Origin: Burkholderiales bacterium
GTDB taxonomy: Bacteria > Pseudomonadota > Gammaproteobacteria > Burkholderiales > Burkholderiaceae_C
NCBI GenBank assembly: GCA_947381415.1
Contig: CANCVB010000001.1
Span: forward strand, 124,001-188,000
Reading direction: 5' to 3'
Length of the DNA stretch: 64,000 nt
Shown: piece after piece, positions 5,870 to 21,468 of the stretch
Layout: each line of letters starts with the position of its first letter
Position numbering within the stretch: position 1 is the first letter of the stretch
Program-made: the position numbers and the translations under genes
Notes under the pieces: generated by a model
What the model was told of the DNA's origin: nothing
The model's database searches: none
What the model saw: only the letters and a program-made list of their open reading frames with translations

Positions 5870-7486
5870 TCACTGCTGCAAAAACAACTTGTAGACCGGG
5901 TTGGCGCTTTCGTCCACATAGGGGTAGCCCAAACCGTCCAAAAACTTCTCGAAACTGGCTTGGTCCTTGGCAGGTACCTGCAGACCGACCAAGATGCGGC
6001 CGTAGTCGGCGCCTTGGTTACGGTAATGGAACAGACTGATGTTCCAGCCTGGTCGCATGGCAGACAAAAAGGTCATCAATGCGCCTGGGCGCTCTGGAAA
6101 GACAAACCTCAATAAGCGTTCGTTCAAGGCCAAGGAAGAACGGCCACCCACCATGTGACGGATATGTTCTTTGGCCAAATCATCGTGCGTGAGATCGAGC
6201 GACTCAAAGCCATGGCGGCTTAAATGCGCGGCAATCTTGGTACTTTCACCCATGCTGCTGGTGGTCAGTCCGACAAACACATGGGCCTTGGCTGAGTCAC
6301 TGATTCGGTAATTGAACTCGGTGATGGAGCGTGGCGATTTGCTGCCACCAAAGGCGGGCAAGTCGCCCAACAAGCTGCAAAATTGCTTGAAGCTGCCGCG
6401 CTCCTCGGGGATGGTGACGGCCAACAGCGCTTCGCGCTCTTCACCCACCTCGGCGCGTTCGGCCACAAAACGCAGGCGGTCGAAATTCATATTGGCGCCA
6501 CACAAAATGGCAGCGTAGGTTTGGCCGCGTGTTTTGTGTTGGGCCACGTATTTTTTGATGGCCGCGACAGCCATGGCGCCCGAAGGTTCGACGATGCTGC
6601 GGGTATCCACGAAGACGTCTTTGATGGCGGCGCACACCGCATCGGTGTCGACGCTGATGTAGTCGTCAACCAAATGGCGGGCGATACGGAAAGTTTCCTC
6701 GCCTACCAATTTCACTGCGGTGCCATCGGCAAACAAACCCACATCGTTCAAGGTCACGCGTTTGCCTGCGGTGACGGACTGCAGCATGGCAGACGAGTCA
6801 TCCATTTGTACGCCAATCACCTTGACCTCGGGGCGCACCGCCTTGATGTAGTTGGCCACCCCGCTGATCAAACCACCCCCGCCAATGGCCACAAACACAG
6901 CGTCCAACGGGCCTTGGTGTTGGCGTAACAACTCCATCGCGATGGTGCCTTGGCCGGCAATCACCTCGGGGTCGTCAAACGGGTGGATGAAGCTGAGGCC
7001 TTGCTTGGCACACAGCTTCACAGCATGGCCGTAGGCATCGGTATAGCTGTCCCCATGCAGCAGCACCTCGCCGCCCAAGGCTTTCACCGCATCCACTTTC
7101 ACCGCAGGCGTGGTGACGGGCATGACGATGACAGCGCGGGTGCCTAGCTTTTTGGCGCCCAAGGCCACGCCTTGCGCATGGTTTCCTGCCGAAGCACACA
7201 CCACACCTTTGGCGAGTTGTGCGGGGCTGAGTTGCACCATTTTGTTGTAGGCGCCCCGCAACTTGAAACTGAACACGGGTTGCTGGTCTTCGCGCTTGAG
7301 CAATACCTGGTTGTGCAGGCGCTTGCTCAGGATGGGCGCGGCGTCCAATGCAGACTCGTGCGCCACGTCATACACTCTCGCGGTGAGGATTTTTTTCAGG
7401 TAATCCCCAGGGGTCAGGCGATGCGCGCGCGCGGGCTTGGTAGCGGCAGGGGAGGCGGGTTGAGGGCGGTGTTTGGAAGAAGGCAT
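5870..7486 (-). CDS. ilvA: Threonine ammonia-lyase, biosynthetic
   Basis: About 538 residues. The N-terminal PLP-fold catalytic domain has the lysine motif FSFKLRGAYNK, the loop SAGNHAQGVA and the glycine loop GGGGLISG. Two C-terminal ACT-like regulatory domains follow (about residues 335-538), as in the isoleucine-sensitive biosynthetic enzyme. It converts threonine to 2-oxobutanoate and ammonia, the first step to isoleucine. The ATG at 7486 was preferred over a TTG at 7519 because it lies just after a terminator-like hairpin. No strong ribosome binding site is seen. It converges on the recombinase gene. Confidence 0.95.
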   Translation of the reverse strand: MPSSKHRPQPASPAATKPARAHRLTPGDYLKKILTARVYDVAHESALDAAPILSKRLHNQVLLKREDQQPVFSFKLRGAYNKMVQLSPAQLAKGVVCASAGNHAQGVALGAKKLGTRAVIVMPVTTPAVKVDAVKALGGEVLLHGDSYTDAYGHAVKLCAKQGLSFIHPFDDPEVIAGQGTIAMELLRQHQGPLDAVFVAIGGGGLISGVANYIKAVRPEVKVIGVQMDDSSAMLQSVTAGKRVTLNDVGLFADGTAVKLVGEETFRIARHLVDDYISVDTDAVCAAIKDVFVDTRSIVEPSGAMAVAAIKKYVAQHKTRGQTYAAILCGANMNFDRLRFVAERAEVGEEREALLAVTIPEERGSFKQFCSLLGDLPAFGGSKSPRSITEFNYRISDSAKAHVFVGLTTSSMGESTKIAAHLSRHGFESLDLTHDDLAKEHIRHMVGGRSSLALNERLLRFVFPERPGALMTFLSAMRPGWNISLFHYRNQGADYGRILVGLQVPAKDQASFEKFLDGLGYPYVDESANPVYKLFLQQ

Positions 7487-7517: not shown

Positions 7518-7550
7518 AAAAAAAGCCCCGCTCCTTGCGGAGGCGGGGCT
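7518..7550 (-). terminator. Rho-independent terminator just upstream of ilvA
   Basis: On the minus strand AGCCCCG-C-CTCC, loop GCAA, GGAG-CGGGGCT, then seven T. The stem is long and has one bulged C. The plus-strand direction has no T run, so it does not terminate the osmC side. Confidence 0.8.
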
Positions 7551-7605
7551 GTAAATCCACCTTTTCAGAGGGTGGAGGAGACAAAAGGTGCTTGAAACCA
7601 AGCGT
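7518..7605 (-). ncRNA. Candidate small RNA (or ilvA leader) with anti-Shine-Dalgarno loop
   Basis: A promoter-like TTGCAG (7640-7635), 17 bp spacer and TATATT (7617-7612) would start an RNA near 7605. It would fold as three hairpins. The first is GCTTG/CAAGC (7603-7590). The second is CACCTTTT/AAAAGGTG (7590-7583 with 7565-7558), holding the 17-base C/U-rich loop GTCTCCTCCACCCTCTG. The third is a GC-rich terminator with a GCAA loop and seven T. The CUCCUCC loop is complementary to ribosome binding sites. The ilvA ATG follows 32 bases after the T run, so an attenuating leader is the alternative. Not recognised as a named family. Confidence 0.5.
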
Positions 7606-7611
7606 GCCTCC

Positions 7612-7640
7612 AATATAGCCGAACATTTGCTGCGCTGCAA
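7612..7640 (-). promoter_or_regulatory. Sigma-70-like promoter for the small RNA / ilvA leader
   Basis: TTGCAG at 7640-7635 and TATATT at 7617-7612 with a 17 bp spacer on the minus strand. The -10 is close to consensus and the -35 is weaker. Confidence 0.5.
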
Positions 7641-7680: not shown

Positions 7681-8130
7681 ATGGAATGCACAGTCAGTTG
7701 GACAGGCGCTAGCGGCAGTCGCTCTGCCATGGGTTTTGTGGCCGAGACAGGCAGCGGTCATGTCGTGGCCATGGATGGGGCCCCCGACCCTGCCAAGCCC
7801 GACCAAAGCGGCCAAAACTTGGCCGCAAGACCTATGGAGTTGATGTTGGCAGGCGCAGGTGGATGCACTGCCTATGACGTGGTGTTGATTTTGAAGCGTG
7901 GTCGTCACGCCATTCAGGGATGCACCGTCAAACTCACCAGCGAGCGCGCCGAGACCGACCCCAAGGTGTTCACCCGCATACACATGCATTTCACGGTTCG
8001 TGGAAAAGGCTTGCCCCCTGAGGTTGTGGAGCGAGCCATCAAAATGAGCCACGACAAATACTGCTCAGCCAGCATCATGCTGGGTAAAACCGCCGAGATC
8101 ACCACGGGTTTTGAAGTGATAGAGGTTTAA
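7681..8130 (+). CDS. OsmC family protein (thiol peroxidase-like)
   Basis: 149 residues of OsmC/YhfA type. The two conserved cysteines are visible at Cys62 (AGAGGCTAYDVV) and Cys128 (HDKYCSASIML). Family members reduce organic hydroperoxides in the cytoplasm; the substrate here is not determined. The ATG at 7681 has AAGGA seven bases upstream, favoured over an in-frame ATG at 7660. It converges on coq7 with three bases between the stops. Confidence 0.88.
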   Translation: MECTVSWTGASGSRSAMGFVAETGSGHVVAMDGAPDPAKPDQSGQNLAARPMELMLAGAGGCTAYDVVLILKRGRHAIQGCTVKLTSERAETDPKVFTRIHMHFTVRGKGLPPEVVERAIKMSHDKYCSASIMLGKTAEITTGFEVIEV

Positions 8131-8133
8131 AAC

Positions 8134-8763
8134 CTAAATCCTGTGTGCCACGCTTGTCATCAGCTTGGCTGCCAAGCGCATGGCCTCGCGTACGGGCTGA
8201 GGTAAAGCCACCGCACCGGCTTTTTGCGCATCTGCCGCGTGTTGCGCTTCATCGGCTTGCATTTGGGTGACGACCGCCCGCGAAGCCAAGTCTGCTGCGG
8301 GCAAGCGCTCGAGGTGCTCACCCAAATGCGCCGCCACTTGGTGCTCGGTTTCCACCACAAAACCCAAACTCACGCCATCGCCACCGAGCTTGCCTGCGGC
8401 ATAGCCAATGGCAAATGCACCCGCGTACCAAAGCGGGTTGAGCAAACTCGGACGCGCGCCCAAGTCGGCCAAGCGTGCTTCGGTCCAAGCCAAGTGGTCG
8501 GTTTCTTCGGCACTGGCTTGTACAAACTGCTCGCGCAATTGCGGATTGCGCGTGGCCATGGCTTGCGCCGCATACAGCGCTTGGGCGCACACCTCGCCCA
8601 CATGGTTGACTCGCATCAACGCGCCAGATTCGGCGCGCTCTTGATCACTCAGACTGAGCGCGTTAACCCCCAGCGCGGGATCGGGTCGCGCGGCATGGTG
8701 CGACGCAAACACGGTGCGCAGACTTTGGTCAAGCAAGGAAATAAAACGGTCTGTCAGCGGCAT
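8134..8763 (-). CDS. coq7: 2-polyprenyl-3-methyl-6-methoxy-1,4-benzoquinone monooxygenase
   Basis: 209 residues of the Coq7/CAT5 di-iron family, which hydroxylates demethoxyubiquinone in ubiquinone synthesis. The iron ligands are visible in two repeated halves: Glu in [17 protein letters not shown] and DEAQH. A hydrophobic patch around [13 protein letters not shown] fits membrane association. It stands alone between the convergent OsmC gene and the divergent porin. Confidence 0.95.
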
Positions 8764-21133: not shown

Positions 21134-21468
21134 GTGAAGCTCGCTAGGCCGTCGCTGGTGCAAGGGCAGAAATGCCGCACTGGAGGAACGTCCGGACTGC
21201 ACAGGACAGCGCAGGAGGTAACACCTCTCCACCGTGAGGTGAGGATCAGAGCAACAGAGACGAGTCAGCCTGCGTGCTTGCATGTGGGTTGGGTGAAACG
21301 GGCAATCTCTGCGCGCAGCAATACCAAGTAGGCCAACGTTGAGGCGGTTCGCTGAGTTGGCGGGTAGGTAGCACCGAGCCGGGTGGGCGACCCTCGGCCC
21401 AGAGGAATGACGGTCACATGGCGGGAAACCGCTGTGCACAGAATCCGGCGTATCGGCGGGCTTCACAC
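21134..21468 (+). ncRNA. rnpB: RNase P RNA, bacterial class A
   Basis: The stretch has the universally conserved GGAGGAACGTCCGGACT near 21182, the AGAG/AACAGAGA element near 21248, and the 3' ACAGAATCCGG element near 21438. The 5' GTGAAGCTCGC pairs with the 3' GGCGGGCTTCAC to form helix P1, which sets both ends. Length of about 335 nt is normal for class A. It is the catalytic RNA that trims tRNA 5' ends. A T run follows directly. Confidence 0.95.

Follow-up and report, generated by a model that had tools for sequence, protein, structure and literature searches.

An RF02278 small RNA with a putative PhaR operator at its promoter: a candidate tie between polyhydroxybutyrate storage and anti-Shine-Dalgarno RNAs in Burkholderiales

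A small RNA (sRNA) gene lies on the minus strand between ilvA and a divergent OsmC-family gene in a 64,000-nt stretch of a Burkholderiales genome (GenBank assembly GCA_947381415.1, contig CANCVB010000001.1, positions 124,001 to 188,000), hereafter termed the window. The sRNA is real, belongs to an already catalogued Rfam family (RF02278, "Betaproteobacteria toxic small RNA") and is ordinary among its members; its chief value is a testable tie between polyhydroxybutyrate (PHB) storage and sRNAs with an anti-Shine-Dalgarno motif. PhaR is a repressor that is sequestered by PHB granules, and phasin is a protein of the granule coat. Two features predicted from sequence stand out: (i) the -35 element of the sRNA is embedded in a palindrome that matches the published PhaR site, and (ii) a similarly built RNA appears to be encoded behind the phasin gene. 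The favored reading, which is considered fairly probable, is that of a trans-acting RF02278 sRNA that uses a sigma-70 promoter of its own, masks the ribosome-binding sites of many mRNAs and is coupled to PHB by a PhaR-type operator.

The RF02278 RNA and its conserved core

The core of the window RNA matches RF02278 at 50.7 bits, compared to a gathering cut-off of 50, and is the only match at E <= 0.001 in the genome. At this E-value, the family is detected in 47/61 genus, 170/200 family and 188/300 order genomes, with 38, 141 and 114 of these sets, respectively, having a match above the cut-off. The window RNA shares the UGUCUCCUCC start, the UCCAYC/GRUGGA hairpin and the subsequent terminator with the family, including the double-hairpin RNAs of Burkholderia (ncS03, ncS05, ncS27 and ncS62). 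By contrast with the Burkholderia RNAs, it scores just above the threshold and is missing the second CUCCUC of the hairpin loop, a usual RF02278 trait that is not demanded by the Rfam cut-off. This second motif (CTCCTC in the DNA) is present in 28/30 family and 29/29 order loci and in 0/31 genus loci, with which the low bit score of the window RNA fits. The locus counts here and below are based on a set of 90 that includes the window locus and the best loci from the genus, family and order searches (30, 30 and 29); the set is not a random draw, and p-values overstate certainty because related genomes are not independent. Six further Rfam families are noted at E values up to 1 in the scanned stretch, all below their cut-offs: Trp_leader, PyrR, TCV_Pr (on the other strand), anti-hemB, Spot_42 and ncS54. 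Certain order genomes (G264, G462 and G491) have several RF02278 matches each (nine in G264), some of which are about 200-400 bases apart. Outside of RF02278, the alphaproteobacterial 'cuckoo'/CcsR sRNAs form another family with CCUCCUCC anti-Shine-Dalgarno loops.

The sRNA gene is preceded by a promoter of its own, in agreement with a preliminary description of this DNA, with TTGCAG and TATATT spaced by 17 bp on the minus strand. The promoter is of moderate strength (consensus bases 3/6 in the -35 and 5/6 in the -10), and a scan that needed 9/12 consensus bases reported none for the sRNA. The terminator stem and U7 tract are likewise present as described, and the 88-nt strand folds at -36.1 kcal/mol, which is better than shuffled sequences (z -4.06, equalled by 1/200). 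Read on the minus strand from 7605 to 7518, a small hairpin leads into a single-stranded segment rich in C and U, which is followed by the second hairpin and then by a strong terminator.

The anti-Shine-Dalgarno motif of the preliminary description is conserved, with GTCTCCTCC kept in 89/90 loci. The hairpin around it differs from the one first drawn. In the full transcript of the window, the UCCACC/GGUGGA stem of the Rfam model has pair probabilities of 0.85-0.99, compared to <=0.005 for the middle helix CACCUUUU/AAAAGGUG that was first drawn with an open 17-nt loop, although each helix is worth -8.2 kcal/mol when scored alone. The two helices also differ in their conservation. The Rfam stem is paired in 521/540 cells over the 90 loci, and 11 loci have U-A rather than C-G at its fifth pair. 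The alternative helix is paired in 380/720 cells and can form at least 7 pairs in just 7/90 loci, with all 8 possible in the window locus and in two close relatives (L019 and L023). The open-loop middle hairpin is thus rejected on its pair probability and poorly kept pairs, and the loop, once described as purely C and U, reads GUCUCCUCCACCCUCUG. The segment predicted to be accessible is instead UGUCUCC, 5' of the stem.

Of the three hairpins proposed, the terminator stem and the 5' hairpin stand for the window, while the middle helix was drawn wrongly. The 5' hairpin is limited to some members of the genus; others have the -10 element almost directly before the core. Among the 24 operator-bearing genus loci (see below), the distance from operator start to core is 37-38 nt in 10 and 60-63 nt in 11, with the -10 at a constant distance from the operator in both groups. 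Transcription would start almost at the core in the 37-38-nt group. In the 60-63-nt group, to which the window locus belongs, the transcript would carry a leader; this may be trimmed off, in line with reports on S17 and ncS27.

The palindrome at the -35 element

The palindrome that overlaps the -35 element was compared with a consensus deduced from published PhaR sites of Ralstonia eutropha (PMC12849132). Putative operators are defined as sites with an intact TGC/GCA core and <=2 mismatches within 120 nt upstream of the RNA core. Such sites are found at 63/90 loci (24/31 genus, 23/30 family and 16/29 order loci) compared to 12/1835 other 120-nt windows of the same loci. With <=3 mismatches, the counts are 68/90 loci, 22/1835 windows and 47/1800 shuffled upstream sequences. 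A -10-like hexamer, taken without a control as the best hexamer 4-14 nt past the site, accompanies the operator in 66 of these 68 loci and is 8-10 nt beyond it in 63. The same operator-promoter architecture is noted, among the matches listed, in records named Burkholderia, Paraburkholderia, Massilia, Janthinobacterium, Duganella and Cupriavidus, the last including a C. gilardii record. In this survey (80 loci listed of 120 stretches), the operator is built into the search pattern, so the result speaks to occurrence rather than frequency; the offset from operator to -10 is 9 in 77/80 listed loci, and 4/80 have matches to the neighbour genes of the window.

The window's genome encodes phaR. The degenerate pattern TTGCNNNGCARCA matches 73 times in this genome; among 17 loci with surroundings that were read (hand-picked pattern matches with an RNY centre as well as the phaR and phasin loci), sites with <=2 mismatches reside outside of genes just at the sRNA and upstream of phasin. 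Four further sites of this quality in the window are all inside open reading frames (ORFs). In Cupriavidus necator, PHB granules draw PhaR away from promoters (PMC9049629, PMC12849132). PhaR would repress the sRNA promoter, as suggested by the overlap of the operator with the -35.

A precedent is described from Sinorhizobium, where the promoter of the sRNA MmgR is reported to be repressed by PhaR/AniA (PMC8401924, PMC12542648). MmgR differs in that it belongs to the alphaproteobacterial alpha-r8 family and is reported to act on phasin production; the likeness is by description only. The putative PhaR link to an RF02278 RNA appears new as far as the openly licensed literature was searched: no paper that names ncS27 also names PhaR, nothing joins PhaR, Betaproteobacteria, small RNA and polyhydroxybutyrate, and the accessible portions of PMC9049629, PMC8401924 and PMC11332829 reveal no PhaR-sRNA link for Burkholderia or C. 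necator.

Phasin promoters and a second RNA

The operator-type site is also prevalent upstream of phasin genes. The comparison takes the best-matching gene of each of 30 chosen genomes (23 genera) and that of the window's own genome, with one phasin copy per genome covered and starts set at the nearest ATG. The site occurs in 30/31 of the 350-nt phasin promoters, with two or more sites in 24, compared to 6/217 other 350-nt windows of the same loci. In the window's genome, two sites precede the phasin gene.

Directly behind this phasin gene, a second RNA of similar build to the window sRNA is predicted from sequence (Table 1). A longer RF02278 match that stays below the threshold (28.6-34.9 bits) is seen in nine genus genomes, and in the six examined it is just behind a reading frame that ends like the phasin of the window's genome. 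The motif GTCTCCTC is found <=130 nt from the stop codon in 18/31 phasin genes compared to 2/651 other windows on the same strand, or 3/1302 when both strands are counted, with only the phasin 3' untranslated region (UTR) excluded from either control. The shorter TTGTCTCCYY is <=300 nt behind the stop codon in 24/31 phasin genes and is missing from 7/31. An alignment (A1) of 28 RNAs includes 22 phasin 3' UTRs and six RF02278 matches, with L270 and L260 omitted although both carry TTGTCTCCYY; its invariant start is partly by construction, as the 3' UTRs were picked by this motif. Of 14 predicted pairs in A1, 12 have changes on both sides, as determined by RNAalifold on its own prediction with no shuffled control. 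A model (R1) built from A1 matches 92/120 family genomes at E <= 0.001, a count that includes RF02278 loci, which R1 also scores (that of the window among them), and one genome (G066) counted through such a locus alone. The best 30 R1 loci all follow a phasin stop codon on its own strand at a distance of 5-179 nt, with three from genomes used in the model; some weaker matches are RF02278 loci. Within the window's genome, R1 scores at two places, with 52.8 bits at the phasin 3' UTR and 39.9 bits at the window sRNA.

Seven phasin-RNA loci searched against Rfam at E <= 0.05 are without a match above cut-off at these RNAs, and no literature search was aimed at phasin 3'-UTR RNAs. The sub-cut-off matches are RF02278 in L251 and L260, anti-hemB in L260 and BjrC68 in L263. 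In L260 (2053-2116), from a more distant order genome, the phasin 3' UTR has an RF02278 match of 33.9 bits with CUCCUCCUCC and looks intermediate between the two RNA types.

Neighbours, relatives and rival explanations

The genes that flank the sRNA are conserved to different extents. Within about 1.5 kb on each side of the 90 loci, with some contigs ending early, an IlvA match is detected near the sRNA in 27/31 genus, 29/30 family and 0/29 order loci. OsmC is matched in 30/31, 30/30 and 19/29 loci and Coq7 in 25/31, 29/30 and 14/29 loci, respectively; at least one of the two is matched in 21 of the 29 order loci. As S17 of Bordetella pertussis also adjoins coq7 (PMC11722255), a positional relationship between it and the window RNA is probable; Bordetella is known here from this published description. 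Elsewhere in the window, an ordinary class A RNase P RNA is present at 21136-21468 (205.4 bits).

Table 1. Features of the sRNA locus in the window and the predicted RNA behind the phasin gene
Feature	Position	Strand	Remark
Predicted primary sRNA transcript, ~88 nt	7518..7605	(-)	5' end inferred from -10
Conserved RF02278 core, 66 nt	7518..7583	(-)	Rfam match; probable processed form by analogy with 67-nt S17S (PMC11722255)
Anti-Shine-Dalgarno seed UGUCUCCUCC	7574..7583	(-)	Overlaps Site 1 of S17S by analogy
Conserved hairpin UCCACC/GGUGGA	7556..7576	(-)	Loop without second CTCCTC motif
Intrinsic terminator, GC-rich stem-loop and U7	7518..7549	(-)	
Small 5' hairpin	7590..7603	(-)	In part of genus only
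-10 element TATATT	7612..7617	(-)	
-35 element TTGCAG	7635..7640	(-)	Inside putative operator
Putative PhaR operator ATATTGCAGCGCAGCAA	7627..7643	.	2 mismatches of 17 to YTKNTGCRNYGCANMAR
ilvA, threonine ammonia-lyase	5870..7486	(-)	Downstream of sRNA; ATG start presumed
OsmC-family protein, divergent neighbour	7681..8130	(+)	135.9 bits, just below curated cut-off 138; start presumed
coq7, ubiquinone synthesis monooxygenase	8134..8763	(-)	Also adjoins S17 in B. pertussis
Second RNA with UUGUCUCCUC, hairpin and terminator, directly behind phasin gene	L122:1175-1247 = G000:C4:123596-123668	minus	Window's genome

Four RF02278 members are reported from Burkholderia with expression (PMC4603805) and four from Herbaspirillum (PMC7011215). 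S17 of Bordetella is Hfq-dependent and is cut from 190 to 67 nt by RNase E (PMC11722255, a preprint); the 190-nt form (S17L), which is higher in the Bvg+ mode, is longer than the ~88-nt window RNA. In the same work, 92 genes are up without S17, and BP2158 is directly repressed through pairing in a 5' UTR, as confirmed by compensatory mutations. S17 is reported to differ by 2 nt in the seed region from bdhR1, the name given to one Burkholderia member (PMC11722255), and its quoted promoter hexamers, TTGCAT/TACTAT, are those of order loci L073 and L079, both operator-bearing. Overexpression of ncS27 slows growth while its antisense speeds growth, and ncS03, ncS05 and ncS27, the three family members for which values are given, are up 8.0-, 6.9- and 4.3-fold, respectively, in glucose medium (PMC5688073). 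A review places ncS27 in metabolic shutdown upon nutrient deprivation (PMC10987360).

In the favored reading, the RF02278 RNA would be transcribed from its own sigma-70 promoter, probably be trimmed to start at UGUCUCC and may be bound by Hfq. Translation of many mRNAs, which in the relatives come from uptake and catabolism genes, would be blocked by pairing of the unpaired UGUCUCC with their ribosome-binding sites; the adjacent UCC would join in were the hairpin to open. PhaR would repress the sRNA until it is sequestered by PHB granules. The sRNA would then increase alongside phasin in cells that are rich in carbon and limited in growth, where it would put a brake on uptake. A wider form of this model, with about even chances, is that PHB storage drives a pair of sRNAs in Burkholderiales that mask ribosome-binding sites: the stand-alone RF02278 RNA, whose repression would be lifted once granules titrate PhaR, and a second RNA released from the 3' UTR of the phasin mRNA, which is likewise preceded by PhaR sites. 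In that case, PhaR would be the repressor postulated for S17 and the cause of ncS27-type accumulation.

Several observations weigh against the PHB-coupled model. The sixth pair of the Rfam hairpin is broken in 19/90 loci, and the start regions of 52 ORFs of the window (crudely called from ATG for target prediction) pair with the seed no better than gene bodies (p=0.65); the osmC start region (ATG at 7681) has a predicted pairing of -11.0 kcal/mol. The Burkholderia RNAs are also up in starvation and biofilm (PMC5688073) and, thus, carbon excess is not their sole trigger. The sign of PhaR at the sRNA promoter is a guess, as PhaR is reported to activate phaP3 in R. eutropha (PMC12849132). The operator is missing from 7/31 genus loci, four of these in genomes that encode PhaR, and it is found in 61/78 genomes with PhaR compared to 7/12 where PhaR is undetected, several of the latter being incomplete metagenome-assembled genomes (p=0.16).

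This lack of significant co-occurrence would agree with a rival explanation in which the sRNA is the same, the -35 palindrome is bound by another regulator or is mere promoter sequence, and the PHB link is coincidental, as would the finding that the ~3-kb phaR locus scanned (L091) has no site at <=2 mismatches although phaR is autoregulated in C. necator (PMC9049629). This explanation is possible but rather unlikely, as the right half-site is conserved across families yet not needed by a -35, and the same motif, which matches the consensus from published PhaR sites (PMC12849132), recurs in the phasin promoters. The toxic RNA of a toxin-antitoxin kind at which the Rfam name hints is highly improbable. 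RF02278 is so named for inhibiting Escherichia coli when cloned, according to citing papers (PMC7011215, PMC4603805); however, S17S hardly inhibits E. coli, with only a modest effect on later growth (PMC11722255), and the RF02278 match of the window's genome is single; no search was aimed at an antitoxin.

A cis-acting role, in which the RNA is a leader or attenuator that controls ilvA by read-through, was part of the preliminary description and is quite improbable. The presumed ATG of ilvA is indeed close, 31 nt beyond the sRNA end on the same strand, and the region bears a weak similarity to the Rfam Trp_leader (26.7 bits compared to a cut-off of 41). The ilvA gene is not, however, at a fixed distance: the gaps, extrapolated from alignment to the window protein, are estimated at -33 to 937 nt in 56 loci. 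As the gaps vary, the order loci are without IlvA matches within about 1.5 kb and the ilvA start region ranks only 20/52 for predicted pairing with the sRNA, the leader reading is rejected, with no search aimed at a leader peptide. Read-through into ilvA may occur in this strain. In Halomonas, ilvA is reported to connect amino-acid synthesis with PHB as a node (PMC13101641), which might explain why it neighbours the sRNA.

What controls these RNAs is a question left open by earlier work: the cause of sRNA accumulation in the bacterium studied is called "yet unknown" (PMC5688073), and for S17 the relief of a repression is postulated without naming the repressor (PMC11722255). The promoter of the window RNA suggests an answer to this question. 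If true, carbon storage would be tied to translational braking by two RNAs.
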